Shown piece by piece: positions 2,499 through 8,025 of a stretch of DNA of 64,000 nucleotides. The stretch covers positions 62,001 through 126,000 of the forward strand of contig JANQEE010000032.1 of assembly GCA_028278525.1 (NCBI GenBank), given 5' to 3'. A model generated the notes under the pieces. That model was not told where the DNA came from and searched no databases. It saw only the letters and a program-made list of their open reading frames with translations. Positions within the stretch are counted from its first letter, which is position 1; each line of letters starts with the position of its first letter. Made by a program: the position numbers and the translations under genes. Origin of the DNA: Minwuiaceae bacterium (GTDB lineage Bacteria > Pseudomonadota > Alphaproteobacteria > Minwuiales > Minwuiaceae).

Positions 2499-4103
2499 AT
2501 GGCGGAAACCGCATCGAGGAACCGGCCGGAGCCGGCTGACAAGTCCGAACTTGGCTATCGGATCAGTTTCGATCCGCACGGCAAGCGCATTCGCGTCGTC
2601 TTCAACGGCGAAACCGTGGCCGACAGTTCGGCCGTGATGGTGCTGCGCGAAACCCGTCTTCCCCCGGTGTTCTATTTCCCGCGTGCCGACGTGCGCATGG
2701 ACCTGATGACGCGGACCAGTCGCCGGACCCATTGCCCGTTCAAGGGCAACGCGACCTATTGGACGTTGGCGGCCGGCGGGCGCGTCGCCGAGAACGCGGT
2801 CTGGGGCTACGAGGACCCGATCCGCGACGTCGGCAACCTAAAGGACTACGTCGCGTTCTATTGGAATGAGATGGATACCTGGCTTGAGGACGGTGAGGAA
2901 ATCGCGGAGCCGCCTGGCGTGGAGGAGGCGACCGGTTTCAACCCGTTCGTCGAATGGCTGCTGCGCGACGCCTGGGACGCCCACGACACGGCCGATCTGG
3001 TTGCCCGGCTGGCCGAGTGCCTGACCGACGCCGGTGTGCCGCTCTGGCGTCTCAGGCTAGTGATCCGCACCCTGCACCCGCAGTTGTTCGCCACCGGATA
3101 CGGTTGGCTGCGCGACGAGCCGACGGTGACCGAGGTTAGACTGTCGCACGAGGTCTTACAGTCGCGCGAGTACCTGGAAAGCCCGTTCGCGCCGATCCTG
3201 GAAGGGGCGGGCGGCGTGCGGCGGCGCCTCAACACCCCGGACGCGGTTCTGGATTACCCGATTCTGAAGGAGTTGCAGGAAGCGGGCGCCACCGACTACG
3301 CGGCCATGCCGATGCCGTTTTCCGACGGCCAGATCAACGTCCTCACCCTGGTCGCCGACAACCCGGACGGCTTTTCCGCCAACGATCTGGGCAAGCTGCA
3401 CGAAATCATGCCGGTGTTGAGCCGCCTGCTGGAGGTGCATGCGATGCGCCAGACCGCCACAACCTTGTTGGAGACCTATCTCGGCAAGCAAACCGGCGAA
3501 CAGGTATTGGAAGGACTGATCAAGCGCGGCGACGGCAAGGATCTGCACGCCGTGATCTGGTTCTGCGACCTGCGCGGCTCGACGGCGCTCTCCGAATCCA
3601 TGTCGCGGGAAGCCTACCTCGGACTGCTTAACCAGTTCTTCGAATGCATGGCCGGGGCCGTGCTGGACCACGGCGGCGAGGTTTTGAAGTTCATCGGCGA
3701 TGCCGTCCTGGCGATCTTTCCGATTCGCGATCCGGACGATCCAAGCCCCGAAGCCAGCCGCGCCGCGGTCGCCGCCGCACGTGACGCGCAGCGGCGGGTT
3801 GCGGAGCTAAACCGGGAACGGGAAGGGCGCGGTGAAGCGCCGGTCGAATTTGGTGTCGGCTTGCACCGTGGCGACCTGACCTACGGCAATATCGGCACGC
3901 CGGGCCGGCTGGATTTCACCGTCATTGGCGCGGCAGCCAACGAGGCGGCGCGGATAGAGGATCTCTGCAAGGTCGAGGGTCAGCCGATCCTGGTGTCGGC
4001 GACGATCGCCAATTCGCTGCCCGACGATCTGGTGCCGCTTGGCCGGCGCGCGTTGCGCGGTATTCGGTCGGAACAGGAAATCTTCGCGCTGGGCGGGAAT
4101 TGA
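2499..4103 (+). CDS. DUF427 (NTP_transf_9) - class III adenylate cyclase fusion
   Basis: A 534-aa protein. Residues about 40-130 match DUF427 (LPPVFYFPRADVRMDL, then HCPFKG, YW and ENAVW). Residues about 150-330 resemble the GAF-like sensory segment seen ahead of many alphaproteobacterial cyclases. Residues about 345-530 are a class III nucleotide cyclase domain. It has both metal-binding aspartates (FCDLRGST and FIGDAVLAIFP), the Lys/Asp pair that favours ATP (VLKFIGD and LDFTVIG), and the transition-state Asn/Arg (NEAARIE). The catalytic half therefore looks active as a homodimer making cAMP. The N-terminal fusion is unusual. A hairpin follows directly at the stop codon. Confidence 0.85.
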   Translation: MAETASRNRPEPADKSELGYRISFDPHGKRIRVVFNGETVADSSAVMVLRETRLPPVFYFPRADVRMDLMTRTSRRTHCPFKGNATYWTLAAGGRVAENAVWGYEDPIRDVGNLKDYVAFYWNEMDTWLEDGEEIAEPPGVEEATGFNPFVEWLLRDAWDAHDTADLVARLAECLTDAGVPLWRLRLVIRTLHPQLFATGYGWLRDEPTVTEVRLSHEVLQSREYLESPFAPILEGAGGVRRRLNTPDAVLDYPILKELQEAGATDYAAMPMPFSDGQINVLTLVADNPDGFSANDLGKLHEIMPVLSRLLEVHAMRQTATTLLETYLGKQTGEQVLEGLIKRGDGKDLHAVIWFCDLRGSTALSESMSREAYLGLLNQFFECMAGAVLDHGGEVLKFIGDAVLAIFPIRDPDDPSPEASRAAVAAARDAQRRVAELNREREGRGEAPVEFGVGLHRGDLTYGNIGTPGRLDFTVIGAAANEAARIEDLCKVEGQPILVSATIANSLPDDLVPLGRRALRGIRSEQEIFALGGN

Positions 4104-4119
4104 CCGTCGTTTCGACGGT
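4103..4119 (+). terminator. short hairpin at the end of the cyclase gene
   Basis: ACCGTCG and CGACGGT form a 7-bp stem with a TTT loop directly at the stop codon (TGA 4101-4103). No U-tract follows, so it may act in mRNA 3'-end protection rather than as a canonical intrinsic terminator. Confidence 0.4.
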
Positions 4120-4142
4120 TCGCCGAAATCAGGAAGGCGCAC

Positions 4143-4190
4143 GGGGAAGAAGGCGTCGCGTGGAGAGGGGGATTGCCTGCCTTCTTCCCC
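4143..4190. terminator. 12-bp inverted repeat between convergent genes
   Basis: GGGGAAGAAGGC (4143-4154) and GCCTTCTTCCCC (4179-4190) are perfectly complementary across a 24-nt loop. It lies between the cyclase gene and the convergent CNPC-repeat gene and could end transcription from either side. There is no long T-run. Confidence 0.45.
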
Positions 4191-4197
4191 GCACTGG

Positions 4198-4473
4198 TCA
4201 GTTCTTCTTGGCCGCGCAGGGATTGCACGGGTTGCACGCCTTGGCGGCGGCACAGGGATTGCACGCGTTCTTGGCGGCGCAGGGGTTGCAGGCCTTGGCC
4301 GCGCAAGGATTGCACGCCTTCTTCGCCGAGCATGGATTGCAGGCTGCGGCTTTCGCCGGCTGACAGGCGGCTTTCGGCGCCGCCGTCGGCAGGGCGATCG
4401 CGCCGCTAAGCGCCACGGCTGCGCCGAGCGCGAGCGCCGTGCCTTTGATTCTGCTGGTGGTGGATTTCTTCAT
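4198..4473 (-). CDS. secreted Cys-rich CNPC-repeat protein, 91 aa
   Basis: The ATG at 4473 is preceded by AGGAG at good spacing. Residues 1-30 form a signal peptide or signal anchor (MKKS..., hydrophobic Ala/Leu core). The rest is low-complexity: one CQP, then five CNPC units separated by short Ala/Lys spacers (for example CNPCAAKA), ending in CNPCNPCAAKKN, for 12 cysteines in about 56 residues. CxxC-type repeats suggest metal or redox chemistry, or disulfide cross-linking outside the cytoplasm; this is inference. It is the last gene of a minus-strand locus with a sensor kinase and response regulator, and carries the same 31-bp upstream element as the spondin gene. I recognise the repeat style but no named function. 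Confidence 0.7.
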   Translation of the reverse strand: MKKSTTSRIKGTALALGAAVALSGAIALPTAAPKAACQPAKAAACNPCSAKKACNPCAAKACNPCAAKNACNPCAAAKACNPCNPCAAKKN

Positions 4474-4588
4474 TGCCTTGCTCCTGTTGCGGATCGTTTC
4501 GCGCTGCACGTTGATTGTCGCGTGCAGGGGACCGTGTCGACGTCCAATCTGATCTTGCGTTCAATGCTGGCAGATTGATGTAAGAGGG

Positions 4589-4619
4589 CGATAAGGGTTC
4601 TATGAAGATTGTGTAAAGC
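4589..4619 (-). promoter_or_regulatory. predicted response-regulator box upstream of the CNPC-repeat gene
   Basis: This 31-bp stretch begins CGATAAGG and ends TGAAGATTGTGTAAAG plus C. It is identical at 27 of 31 positions to the stretch at 7537-7567 upstream of the spondin gene. Its core is a direct repeat (TGAAG/TGTAAAG) on an 11-bp period, the spacing typical of OmpR/PhoB-family binding. It lies about 115 nt upstream of the CNPC start, in the same orientation relative to the gene as the other copy. Confidence 0.6.
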
Positions 4620-4660
4620 TGCTCACGAAACAGAGCGCTACGCGTTTCTTTTTAGGAACC

Positions 4661-5737
4661 CTAGTCGCTCTTCGCCGAAGGCAGCGTGAACCAGATGCGG
4701 GTCTCGCCGGGTTGGCTGGCGGCGCCGATATGGCCGCCATGCGCTTCGATCAGTTCCTTGGCGATGGCCAGGCCGATGCCCGAGCCACCGCTTTGTCGCG
4801 ACCGGGATTTATCGGTCCGATAGAAGCGTTCGAAGATCAGCGGCAGCTCGGCGGGATCGATGCCGTCGCCGCTGTTGGTGATCGACAGCGTCACGGCGTC
4901 CGGTTGCCGTTTGCCGACAATCGAAACCTGACCGCCTTCGGGCGTGTACTGCCAGGCATTCTGGATCACGTTGTGCAGCACCTGTTTCACCTTGTCCGGA
5001 TCGGCCGGCAGACTTCGCACGTCGCCGTCGAACCGGGTCTCGACGGAAATCCCTTTGACCTGGAAGTTGTAGCGGAACAGTTCCAGCGCTTCGTCCACCA
5101 GGTCGGGAAACCGGATGTCCTCTTTGGTCAGGTGCACCGTCGCGGCTTCGGCCCTGGTCAACTGGTCTAGGTCCTCGACCAGCCGCACCAGCCTCAGGAT
5201 CTGCTGCTGCAGCATCTGGAACGTTTCTTTCGACGGATCGATCACGCCGTCGGCCAGGCCTTCCAGATAACCGCGGATCGTGGTCATCGGCGTGCGCAGT
5301 TCGTGCGCCATGTCGGCCACCATCCGCCGGCGCGACTGTTCGATCCGTTCCAGCCGCTCGGTCATCTGGTCGAACGCCACGCCCAACTGTCCGACCTCGT
5401 CGTTCGACTTGGCCCGCACCCGCGCCGAGTAATCGCCGGTCGCGATCCGTTTGGTGACCGCCGCCATCTCAGACAGCGGCCGCAGGATCTTGCGCGTCAG
5501 CAGGAAGCTCAAGCCGACCGCGACGGCCAGGGCGAACAGACTCACCTGGATCAGGTAGCGGTGCACCGCGTCCAGGAACATCTCATGGCTCATTTCCGGT
5601 GCGATGTCGTAGTTCTCCATCAGCACCATGAAATAGTCGGCGGCCAGGAAGTCGATCGCCAGCCACACCACCACCATCGCCAGCCCGACAATGGCTATGT
5701 TGACGGCAAGAAGCTTCCAGAGAAGGCTCGCGCGCAC
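4661..5737 (-). CDS. sensor histidine kinase (HAMP-HisKA-HATPase), BaeS/CpxA-like
   Basis: A 358-aa membrane kinase. TM1 spans about residues 10-30 and TM2 about 62-80, with only a short periplasmic loop between them. A HAMP domain follows (about 81-133), then HisKA with the phospho-acceptor His145 in ADMAHELRTP, and an HATPase with N box (HNVIQNAWQYT), G1 (GDGID), F (FERFYR) and G2 (GGSGIGLAI) motifs. All catalytic motifs are intact. It follows the response regulator gene with a 12-nt gap and is surely co-transcribed. The roughly 30-residue sensor loop is too small for a classical ligand-binding domain, which suggests sensing of envelope state or a partner protein. Confidence 0.92.
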   Translation of the reverse strand: MRASLLWKLLAVNIAIVGLAMVVVWLAIDFLAADYFMVLMENYDIAPEMSHEMFLDAVHRYLIQVSLFALAVAVGLSFLLTRKILRPLSEMAAVTKRIATGDYSARVRAKSNDEVGQLGVAFDQMTERLERIEQSRRRMVADMAHELRTPMTTIRGYLEGLADGVIDPSKETFQMLQQQILRLVRLVEDLDQLTRAEAATVHLTKEDIRFPDLVDEALELFRYNFQVKGISVETRFDGDVRSLPADPDKVKQVLHNVIQNAWQYTPEGGQVSIVGKRQPDAVTLSITNSGDGIDPAELPLIFERFYRTDKSRSRQSGGSGIGLAIAKELIEAHGGHIGAASQPGETRIWFTLPSAKSD

Positions 5738-5749
5738 CGCCGGCTCCGA

Positions 5750-6469
5750 TTATTCGGCCTGGTCCGCTTCGGCGAAGCGATAGCCGACGCCGCGCACGGT
5801 CAGAAGGTAGGCCGGGTTCGACGCGTCGCGCTCGATCTTTTGCCGCAGCTTGCCGACATGCACGTCGATTACCCGGTCGATGACCGTCTCGCCCCGTTCG
5901 TACAGCCGGTCCAGCAGCTCGTCGCGCGTGAAGACCCGTCCGGGCACGCCGATCAGGATATGCAGCAGCTTGTATTCCAGCGGCGTCAGCGGCACCGCTT
6001 TGCCGCCGATGCTCAGTTTGCGTTTCTCCGGTTCAAGCAGCAGGTCGCCGTGGCGGAGCTTGGTTTCGGCGGTTGCGACCGCCTGTCTGGTGCGGCGCAG
6101 GATCGCCTTGACGCGCTCGACCAGTTCGCGCGGGCTGAACGGTTTGACCACATAATCATCCGCGCCGATGGAAAAGCCGACGATACGGTCGACTTCCTCT
6201 TCCCGCGCCGTCAGCATCAGGATCGGGACGTCGGAGGATTTGCGCAGTTCCCGGCAGACGTCCCAGCCGTCGATTCTGGGCAGCATCAGGTCCAGAATTA
6301 CCAGGGACGGATCGCCGCCGCGGGCGAGCGACAGGCCTGTCTCGCCGTCGTGGGCCACCAGGGTCGTGAAGCCGGCGTTGGTCAGATAGGTCTCGACCAG
6401 GGCGGCGATGTTGGGATCGTCCTCGACGATCAGGATGGGATTGGTGGGCGACGCGTTGTTCATGGCCAT
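5750..6469 (-). CDS. OmpR-family response regulator
   Basis: A 239-aa DNA-binding regulator. The receiver domain occupies residues 10-125, with acidic pocket EDD near 16-18, phospho-acceptor Asp60 (VILDLMLP) and conserved Lys109 (YVVKPF). A winged-helix OmpR domain follows (about 140-235, with LTPLEYKLL and VRGVGYRF). The ATG at 6469 is preferred; a second ATG lies at 6463 and neither has a strong ribosome binding site. It pairs with the downstream kinase. The TGTAAAG direct repeats at 4589-4619 and 7537-7567 are the best candidate targets, because they flank the locus and have OmpR-type spacing (inference). Confidence 0.93.
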   Translation of the reverse strand: MAMNNASPTNPILIVEDDPNIAALVETYLTNAGFTTLVAHDGETGLSLARGGDPSLVILDLMLPRIDGWDVCRELRKSSDVPILMLTAREEEVDRIVGFSIGADDYVVKPFSPRELVERVKAILRRTRQAVATAETKLRHGDLLLEPEKRKLSIGGKAVPLTPLEYKLLHILIGVPGRVFTRDELLDRLYERGETVIDRVIDVHVGKLRQKIERDASNPAYLLTVRGVGYRFAEADQAE

Positions 6470-6530
6470 CGGTCCGGGTCGATGGCTTAAGGCTACCACT
6501 CGCCCGGCCTGTCGTCGCGCGCGAAGAAAA

Positions 6531-6562
6531 GCCGGCCGGGAGCGTCGACGCTCCCGGCCGGC
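6531..6562 (-). terminator. rho-independent terminator of the spondin gene
   Basis: GCCGGCCGGGAGCG and CGCTCCCGGCCGGC form a perfect 14-bp stem with a TCGA loop. On the minus strand it is followed by TTTTC. It sits 20 nt after the stop of the spondin PEP-CTERM gene and before the response regulator gene, so it likely separates their transcripts. Confidence 0.85.
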
Positions 6563-6582
6563 GATCCGATGCCGCGGCGGCG

Positions 6583-7476
6583 TCAGCGTCGTTTCCGGCG
6601 CATCAGCCCCAGGCCGGCGAGCCCCAGTGCGACGAAGCCGAGCGCTGCGGGCTCCGGCACGTCCTGGGTGATGGTGATCCTGGCCACCTGATAGCCCTCG
6701 CGCGTGAAATCGGCGGCGATCTCGTCGAAGGTGACGCCAAGCCCGTTCGTCCCGCCCAGGATGATCGGCGTGCCGCCGGGATTGCCCTCGGAACCGATGA
6801 AGCCGGGATGTTCCGTGACCACGCCGTTTTCCGTTATGCCGTCGCCGTCCATCGCCTGATTGATGAAGGCGGCGTCCATCTCGGTGTTCTCCTCCGTGCC
6901 GGCGTCCAGCACGTCCAGGCCCAGTACCAGGATTTCCACCGGCCCGGTGAACTCTCCGTCGGTGTCGAACAGCATATGCGCCAACGGATCGCCGTTGGCG
7001 ATAAACGCGTCGTTCGACGGAATGATCATCGAGGCATAGCTGAAGTAACGGTTATTGGCGGGGTCGAGATGGAAGGTCGCCGAGGTTGTCTCGCCAGGGT
7101 CGATTACCGGCGGACCGGCAAGGCCGCCCGGCGCCGTAATGGTGGACTCGATGCCGCCGCTCGCTCCTGCGGGGCTGGCGTTGAACGCGGCGCCGATCGG
7201 GCCTGTATTGCCGTCCTCCGCCAATTCCTCCAGGCCGTTGTTGAAGGCTGCGACGTTGCGGTCGTAGATGTCGAATTGGCCGTTGTGGAAGGCGACCCAC
7301 ATGGGCGTCAGGAAAACGCCGCCCTGTGGCGCCAGATTGGTGATTTCCACTTTAATCGCCGCCGCCGATGCCTGGCCGCTGACGCCGATGCTGAGCAAGG
7401 CGGCTGCGGCGGCGCCGATCACGCCGGCTCGAATGCCCCGCTTCCGTTGTGCCATGTTTCGTTCGCGCGATGCCAT
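6583..7476 (-). CDS. spondin-domain PEP-CTERM extracellular protein
   Basis: A 297-aa secreted protein. The ATG at 7476 follows GGAGGG; longer upstream readings cross the promoter. Residues about 15-45 are a signal peptide ending at Ala-rich SGQASAAA. The body matches the spondin N domain (LTPMWVAFHNGQFDIYD, then AFINQAMDGDG and TEHPGF). The C-terminus is a classic PEP-CTERM sorting signal: VPEP, a hydrophobic helix, then RRKRR. Such proteins are expected to be processed by an exosortase and delivered to the cell surface or exopolysaccharide matrix. No exosortase gene lies in the window. The gene ends in a strong terminator and is preceded by a predicted regulator box at 7537-7567. Confidence 0.88.
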   Translation of the reverse strand: MASRERNMAQRKRGIRAGVIGAAAAALLSIGVSGQASAAAIKVEITNLAPQGGVFLTPMWVAFHNGQFDIYDRNVAAFNNGLEELAEDGNTGPIGAAFNASPAGASGGIESTITAPGGLAGPPVIDPGETTSATFHLDPANNRYFSYASMIIPSNDAFIANGDPLAHMLFDTDGEFTGPVEILVLGLDVLDAGTEENTEMDAAFINQAMDGDGITENGVVTEHPGFIGSEGNPGGTPIILGGTNGLGVTFDEIAADFTREGYQVARITITQDVPEPAALGFVALGLAGLGLMRRKRR

Positions 7477-7536
7477 ATGTCCCTCCGCTCGCGTAACATT
7501 TACGTGCGCGCATAGTGGCAAAGCCGCGTAAGCCTT

Positions 7537-7567
7537 CGATAAGGCTCCTGTAAAGATTGTGTAAAGC
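7537..7567 (-). promoter_or_regulatory. predicted response-regulator box upstream of the spondin gene
   Basis: A perfect direct repeat TGTAAAG-ATTG-TGTAAAG (7549-7566) lies inside a 31-bp block that starts with CGATAAGG and is almost identical to 4589-4619. It is about 60 nt upstream of the spondin start, in a region shared with the divergent gene at 7651, which it might also control. Confidence 0.65.
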
Positions 7568-7650
7568 GGAGGTTCGCGCCGCGGATTCCAAGTCGGCGTG
7601 AAATGACATAGAGTCGTTGCCGCACCGTTTTCCAAACCGTGGGGTTTTCA

Positions 7651-8025
7651 ATGCGTTACAGGTTGACCGGTCTGGGAATCGCTTTTTCGTTTCTCGTCGT
7701 GGCCGGCACGGGGCACGCCGGGGACTCACAGAACCGTTTCAAGTCCTACAACCCGCTGCTCAGTTGCGGCGACCTCGTCGAGTTGCGCCACGGCCCGGAA
7801 ACGATCGAAAAGACAGCCGCGTTCTGGTGGCTGATCGGCTTCATGTCCGGGGTGAACAACGGCCTGCCGGAGACGTTCGACATCACCGGCGAAACCGGTT
7901 TGTTCGATTCCCTGCAATGGGCGGTCGACTACTGCGCCGCTAATCCGGAAGCGCCGTTGGAGGATGCCGCCCAGTCTTTGGTGCGGCACCTTTATCCGAA
8001 CCGGGTGCCCGAAGCGCCCGAATAG
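7651..8025 (+). CDS. small secreted protein with HdeA/Rap1a-like layout
   Basis: 124 aa. Residues 1-24 are a signal peptide (MRYRLTGLGIAFSFLVVAGTG, cleavage after GHA). The mature part is helical, with two cysteines (SCGDLV and DYCAAN) placed to form one disulfide, as in small periplasmic HdeA- or Rap1a-type proteins. I infer only that layout, not the function. The gene is divergent from the spondin gene and shares its 174-nt upstream region. The ATG at 7651 is chosen because the signal peptide begins there. Confidence 0.65.
   Translation: MRYRLTGLGIAFSFLVVAGTGHAGDSQNRFKSYNPLLSCGDLVELRHGPETIEKTAAFWWLIGFMSGVNNGLPETFDITGETGLFDSLQWAVDYCAANPEAPLEDAAQSLVRHLYPNRVPEAPE

Follow-up and report, generated by a model that had tools for sequence, protein, structure and literature searches.

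The window analysed here, a stretch of 64,000 nucleotides from a Minwuiaceae bacterium, carries a module of four genes on its minus strand in the order spondin-domain PEP-CTERM gene, response regulator (RR), sensor histidine kinase (HK), and a CNPC-repeat gene (Table 1). The CNPC gene starts with an ATG at 4473, its stop codon ends at 4198, and a ribosome-binding-like AGGAG lies immediately upstream. As the initial annotation of this DNA had described, the encoded product is a repeat protein with twelve cysteines. All twelve fall within residues 37-91 (the last 55), and the units comprise CNPC, CNPCNPC, and AAK/SAKK. An export signal had also been proposed, and inspection agreed: the N-terminus combines a Lys/Arg start, an Ala/Leu/Gly hydrophobic stretch, and a cleavage-like AIA motif, with no lipobox. 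The first 27 residues read as a Sec-type signal ending in AIA and, given this signal-like N-terminus, the protein is predicted to be exported. The predicted mature protein contains no methionine, and its Ala/Lys-rich chain is probably disordered.

Table 1. Features of the CNPC module and of the adjoining convergent gene (window coordinates).
Feature	Position	Strand	Description
DUF427/guanylate cyclase gene, convergent to the CNPC gene	2499..4103	+	Single chain with DUF427 and a guanylate cyclase catalytic domain
CNPC-repeat protein gene	4198..4473	-	91 aa, 12 Cys, signal-like N-terminus
Operator-like site 1, upstream of CNPC gene	4574..4619	-	GCTTTACA / TCTTCATA / CCTTATCG / TCTTACAT, ~11 bp apart
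Sensor histidine kinase (HK)	4661..5737	-	HAMP, HisKA, HATPase_c over cut-off
OmpR/PhoB-type response regulator (RR)	5750..6469	-	Response_reg and Trans_reg_C over cut-off (Pfam)
Strong terminator-like hairpin between spondin-domain and RR genes	6531..6562	-	14 pairs; count of terminators found not above shuffles
Spondin-domain protein with PEP-CTERM sorting signal	6583..7476	-	NF038123 and PEP-CTERM over cut-off
Operator-like site 2, upstream of spondin-domain gene	7522..7567	-	GCTTTACA / TCTTTACA / CCTTATCG / GCTTACGC

Since a low-complexity ORF may arise by chance, codon positions were compared among the repeat units. Among six NPC units (15 pairs), differences at codon positions 1, 2, and 3 numbered 0, 0, and 25, and among four AAK units they numbered 0, 0, and 4. 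Since the differences are confined to third codon positions, the repeat is under selection as protein and is not a nucleotide repeat, and selection acts on the minus frame, even though open frames exist on the plus strand too. This test, together with the relatives found elsewhere, rules out chance or a low-complexity artefact as the origin of the ORF. The cysteine fraction of the ORF is by itself weak evidence against chance: with the CNPC ORF taken at its longest (103 aa), two shorter ORFs among the 349 of the window have a higher one. No Pfam or NCBIfam model matched the window protein over its cut-off. The best Pfam match, Mst87F, was non-significant and below cut-off (E 0.68), and no metallothionein family of either collection matched at E up to 1. 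Searches of the surrounding DNA yielded no Rfam match at 3900-7700 and no sigma-70 promoter at 4050-7700, where shuffles gave a mean of 0.7.

The HK and RR genes lie directly upstream of the CNPC gene on the same strand, with 187 bp between the HK and CNPC genes. The receiver and Trans_reg_C domains of the RR and the HAMP-HisKA-HATPase arrangement of the HK identify a system of the OmpR/PhoB type. Both proteins match many NCBIfam families, all of those listed scoring below their equivalog cut-offs (HK: BaeS 252.6 of 500, WalK 279.1 of 725, heavy-metal kinase 199.9 of 292.55; RR: BaeR 229.2 of 380). The periplasmic loop of the HK is short and has no cysteine; His51, Met53, and His59 within it are invariant in three orthologues.

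Orthologues of the HK were identified in two of the 79 loci found in a scan of named genomes, L074 (RR 63%, HK 56%) and L064 (HK 52%), and a CNPC gene is next to the module in each. No other orthologue was found in 288 other genomes of the class (E<1e-70, seven candidates scored per genome) or in eight other genomes of the order (E<1e-60). The HK-CNPC gaps of the window, L064, and L074 share four direct repeats of the (T)CTTTACA type, ~11 bp apart. When site matrices were trained on two of these loci with the third left out, the site of the third ranked first each time, scoring 29.6 in the window, 43.0 in L064 (next 21.0), and 32.0 in L074 (next 18.4); the maximum of the L064-L074 matrix in other loci was 26.4 (3.08 Mb, both strands). 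Site 2, which was absent from the training set, scored 28.1 with that matrix. Across the whole genome, the leading pattern occurred with one mismatch at two places, exactly sites 1 and 2, and with two mismatches at three, compared with one for the reversed control. On this evidence the CNPC and spondin-domain genes are most likely under control of the RR, as is, in the orthologues, CNPC together with msrP; the RR would act by binding the four-repeat sites. The spondin-domain gene is thus a probable second target of the RR, and the two genes apparently belong to the same small regulon. A search for spondin-domain genes elsewhere in the genome found none, and it also missed the window's own copy. 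The tie to a sensor kinase that the initial annotation had drawn is stronger than proximity, because L064 and L074, the only orthologous loci identified, both retain the operator-like four-repeat site between the HK and CNPC genes and have msrP after the CNPC gene, L064 with SCO1 as well.

Genes downstream of the orthologous CNPC genes may bear on the stress involved. In L074, msrP comes after the CNPC gene; in L064, the genes that come after it encode two proteins with signal-like N-termini, then SCO1/SenC and MsrP. The MsrP proteins of both loci pass the NCBIfam cut-off. The msrP gene of the window's own genome is on contig C12, not beside the CNPC gene, and its region was not among the best-scoring sites. 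We also identified 36 plasmid records with relatives of the HK at 33-43% identity. Nine relatives whose match extends over the sensor region were examined, and seven of them lie within 5 kb of copper or heavy-metal genes (Rhodococcus, Rubrobacter, Rossellomorea, Kocuria, Deinococcus, Corynebacterium, and Cryobacterium, not Chlorohelix or Cohnella), the Rubrobacter and Kocuria plasmids being counted by CDF, DUF305, or ArsR-type genes only. Such genes are also near three of six examined plasmid matches that miss the sensor region, a small contrast, and plasmids are enriched in metal genes.

One reading is that the protein is a sacrificial oxidant sink, i.e., a cysteine counterpart of the Met-rich MrpX/BcrX peptides, whose thiols would consume HOCl or other oxidants in the periplasm while co-expressed MsrP repairs methionine and any metal binding is incidental. 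There are precedents: in Brucella, bcrXQP encodes a Met-rich peptide with MsrQP and is induced by HOCl, such Met-rich peptides with MsrPQ serving to scavenge or withstand it (PMC8315932), and in uropathogenic E. coli, a Met-rich peptide and an MsrPQ-like pair are both under a two-component system (PMC8550376). Such a role fits the gene order of L064 and L074, in both of which a site of this type is followed by CNPC and then MsrP, and the presence of MsrB within 3 kb of CNPC ORFs in six of the 79 named loci. However, no thiol-recycling enzyme is consistently linked to the family, MsrP to our knowledge does not reduce thiols, and both SCO1 and the copper genes near relatives of the kinase speak for metal instead. 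We consider the oxidant sink doubtful, yet the main rival to Cu(I) buffering.

The initial annotation had suggested a profile search for CNPC-repeat proteins and their neighbours. With a profile built from eight short members, CNPC proteins were detected in 37 of 289 Alphaproteobacteria genomes (27 families) and in 57 of 398 genomes sampled across the phylum, counts that are lower bounds, the large searches having scored part of the first-look candidates per genome. Going by record titles, carriers among the named genomes include Kiloniellaceae, Sneathiella (S. chungangensis among them), Denitrobaculum tricleocarpae, Hyphomicrobiales, Granulosicoccaceae, and one Tectomicrobia bin. Three more members are encoded in the window's own genome: contigs C71 and C44 each carry a short one, and C24 carries one of 386 aa. 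By the gene calls of the locus survey, which were heuristic, 78 of the 79 loci contain a CNPC ORF; short forms occur in 34, CNPC-P460 forms in 57, both in 17, and other long forms in six. The constant unit across the family is [N/S]PC, of which CNPC is a frequent doubling, and many relatives consist of NPCAAK units with a single cysteine each. Thus, the regular cysteine array that had been claimed for the window protein is borne out, but its invariant unit is NPC and not CxxC. A literature search, with most subscription journals outside its scope, found no description of a CNPC/NPC repeat family. The family, which has no Pfam or NCBIfam model and recurs across many bacterial families, is widespread and apparently undescribed.

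Long members join CNPC arrays to a C-terminal cytochrome P460 domain or to a SoxA/TsdA cytochrome c domain. Against PF16694 (cut-off 27 bits), the C24 protein of the window's own genome, a CNPC-P460 form, scored 28.6 bits, and two other CNPC-P460 proteins scored 26.0 and 26.1, below the cut-off. A PDB sequence search with the P460 domain of CNPC-P460 gave nothing useful, and a search of plasmids for CNPC-P460 returned no match. Fusions to the SoxA/TsdA-type domain occur in L155, L118, L119, L110, and L169, in more than one phylum going by record titles. Alphaproteobacterial arrays consist of 22.8% Cys, 25.5% Ala, 16.7% Pro, 16.1% Asn, and 11.3% Lys, with 0.1% Met and 0.0% His, and arrays of another lineage of the phylum contain 15.3% Cys, 11.1% Met, and 5.2% His. 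In four loci (L186, L189, L191, and L192), CNPC and CNPC-SoxA genes stand beside ArsM-/ArsS-cluster genes and a multiheme cytochrome gene. One ArsM and one ArsS protein encoded near CNPC-SoxA in another lineage were tested, and both were over the cut-off.

The longest arrays hold up to 110 cysteines in one protein (L127), and Cys-Pro-rich proteins form disulfide-linked structures in animals. A structural role might thus be considered, in which disulfides between arrays would build an envelope or surface matrix that includes the spondin-domain PEP-CTERM protein. The very high Cys and Pro content and the type of site shared with the spondin-domain gene agree with such a cross-linker, as would the match to Mst87F and that of one CNPC-P460 array to Cornifin (Pfam, over cut-off), were both not probably compositional. 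The short form is tiny, however, and the partners of the family are redox and metal proteins, msrP and SCO1 among them, and not wall or matrix genes, making this explanation very unlikely. The cytochrome fusions could instead indicate a sulfur or electron carrier, the arrays bearing sulfane or thiosulfonate groups as substrates for the attached SoxA/TsdA or P460 cytochromes; Sulf_transp (YedE) proteins, encoded in 12 of the 79 named loci (10 when counted within 3 kb of a CNPC ORF), would be in keeping with this. Yet the window copy has neither a cytochrome domain nor a sulfur gene nearby, and the number of cysteines varies widely, so that we regard a carrier function as highly improbable.

To identify partners of the family, neighbours within 3 kb of the CNPC ORFs of the 79 named loci were clustered and counted; the counts for the SNase and HK clusters were set aside, since merged clusters had contaminated them. 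DUF6969 was found in 36 loci and an exported FGE-sulfatase-domain protein in 27, followed by a protein here called p165 in 10, cytochrome c in nine, and cupredoxin, MsrB, a VTT protein, and an FAD oxidoreductase in six each. Counted by genome in the Alphaproteobacteria sample, DUF6969 was present in 35 of 37 CNPC genomes vs. 27 of 252 non-carriers, and the FGE-like protein (E<1e-40) in 18 of 37 vs. 2 of 252; since the genomes are related, Fisher values for both links overstate independence. DUF6969 is thus an uncharacterised protein that is nearly always in genomes with CNPC proteins, and in the window's own genome it maps to contig C24 (L009:5076-8062). It is His-rich, with invariant His, Asp, and Glu residues, and its AlphaFold model has a mean pLDDT of 89.9. 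No fold relative was identified (Foldseek best E 0.4; VIA-align best Z 5.5 over 45 residues), a result that does not show the predicted fold to be new. A literature search for DUF6969, again with most subscription journals outside its scope, found no description of it. The FGE-like protein contains the motif GGSW[DN]DxGCG[VI]CR in all 29 cases, i.e., at L009:5874-6755 and in 28 further loci. The p165 protein (e.g., L028:8242-8736) is exported and ~165 aa long, with invariant cysteines and a C-terminal 'SCPLN'; its AlphaFold model is poor (pLDDT 61). PDB sequence searches with DUF6969 and p165 gave nothing useful.

A second recurrent setting of short forms is between a VTT/FAD-oxidoreductase pair and a kinase of another type. 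On pSymB of Sinorhizobium meliloti (L219), the corresponding TVP38-oxidoreductase-HK trio lacks a CNPC gene and lies near rpmH, and in carriers it is near yidC/rnpA; the repeat protein is therefore dispensable in that kinase context. The initial annotation had named a genomic context retained without the repeats as evidence against its proposal, and this is what the S. meliloti trio presents, for a kinase that is not of the window's type.

MNIO enzymes modify the cysteine-rich peptides called bufferins, and they provide a model for a further explanation, namely that the FGE-like protein, through its CG[VI]C motif, and the His-rich DUF6969 alter cysteines of the array to yield a matured metal-binding peptide. 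The enrichment of both proteins in CNPC genomes and near CNPC ORFs would accord with this, as would the invariant CxxC of the former and the invariant His, Asp, and Glu of the latter. FGE acts on CxPxR peptides and uses copper, its active cysteines being Cys336 and Cys341, i.e., CX4C (PMC4505483). CNPC contains CxPx but lacks the arginine, and the FGE-like proteins have CX2C spacing; the CX4C of FGE proper was not found in them. Moreover, DUF6969 is without a detected fold relative, neither partner gene adjoins the window copy, and the FGE-like protein fell below the threshold in 19 of 37 CNPC genomes. No match to the MNIO enzyme (PF05114) was found in the window's own genome, it was present in 12 of the 37 CNPC genomes, and no MNIO cluster was recognised among the neighbours of CNPC loci. 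Such a modified precursor is, in our judgment, distinctly unlikely. A more general form, in which CNPC proteins are substrates of an unrecognised maturation system made up of the CG[VI]C FGE-fold protein and DUF6969 and become a modified poly-metal-binding polymer, either free under a kinase, as in the window, or tethered to a c-type cytochrome, seems to us unlikely to a somewhat lesser degree.

Computation establishes a conserved family, the module at this locus with conserved sites, and msrP and SCO1 as neighbours in orthologous loci. The CNPC module is real and probably regulated by its neighbour. As to function, we tentatively favour, at less than even confidence, a small periplasmic polythiol that buffers a soft metal, most likely Cu(I), with overlapping oxidant defence and under control of the two-component system. 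The periplasmic buffer is suggested because a thiol-dense, probably unfolded exported chain is encoded beside a two-component system of copper or oxidant type and, in orthologues, with MsrP and SCO1; Cu(I) buffering is put first because of SCO1, the genes near relatives of the kinase, and the resemblance to bufferins. Once exported, the close-set cysteines of this polythiol, in NPC/CNPC units, would capture soft metal present in excess, most likely Cu(I), and thereby buffer the periplasm; if these thiols were oxidised, the protein would serve as an oxidant sink too. The HK may sense the stress, a metal or an oxidant, through its short periplasmic loop, in which His and Met residues are conserved, and the OmpR-type RR would then switch on the CNPC gene and that of the spondin-domain surface protein through the four-repeat sites. 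Copper stress and oxidant stress overlap; E. coli msrPQ is induced by copper through CusSR and also by reactive chlorine (PMC9302797).

In favour of the buffer we count codon selection, the conserved operator, the MsrP/SCO1 neighbours, the company of the plasmid kinases, and the Met/His-containing arrays of one related lineage, found in part at loci with ArsM and ArsS. The family also keeps the same company, cytochrome c and FGE, as a fusion in which a copper-binding Cys peptide is joined to cytochrome c and FGE domains, as described for bufferins (PMC12452194), and this too was counted for it. Against it stand the number of orthologous loci (only two), the location of the genome's own msrP elsewhere, an HK loop without cysteine, and Alphaproteobacteria arrays almost without Met or His. 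Elsewhere in the family, sulphur-, arsenic-, and heme-related genes near CNPC members suit other functions as well. If the buffer is correct, the Met-rich and bufferin-type sinks of the periplasm would have a thiol-rich bacterial counterpart, and a candidate function would emerge for DUF6969 and for the FGE-like proteins with CG[VI]C. The window copy, with its four-repeat site and two-component system, offers a regulatory handle from which the inducing stress could be read.

Exported Cys- or Met-rich stress peptides are a kind of protein already known, and it is the partner set of the CNPC family that is unusual and apparently undescribed. Bufferins/oxazolins (PMC12452194) are MNIO-modified, signal-peptide-bearing Cys peptides that resemble the CNPC family in being exported and small, in their repeated Cys motifs and link to copper, and in having cytochrome c and FGE-sulfatase domains as fusions or neighbours. 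The CNPC family differs in that it has no bufferin-type Pfam or NCBIfam match, its unit is NPC, and DUF6969 is its regular partner. Like MrpX/BcrX with MsrPQ, CNPC proteins are small, exported, and of low complexity, with one redox-active residue, a stress regulator, and, in the orthologous loci, an MsrP neighbour. However, the residue is Cys instead of Met, the Met-rich repeat of MrpX/MXKDX peptides was not found, no MsrP is next to the window copy, and BcrX is under an ECF sigma factor (PMC8315932), whereas the window gene stands beside a two-component system. That system has an OmpR-type RR, a HAMP kinase, direct-repeat sites, and msrP or copper genes near its relatives, as do systems of the CusSR/HprSR/BaeSR type, but it scores below the NCBIfam equivalog cut-offs and its target is a CNPC protein. 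The FGE-like partner shares with the FGE family an FGE-sulfatase domain (PF03781) and export; it differs in having CX2C in place of CX4C, and the closest solved chain to it by profile is ToxD. Finally, long CNPC members resemble cytochrome P460 and SoxA/TsdA cytochrome c, with Pfam matches near or over cut-off, and are set apart from them by the joining of that domain to a CNPC array.
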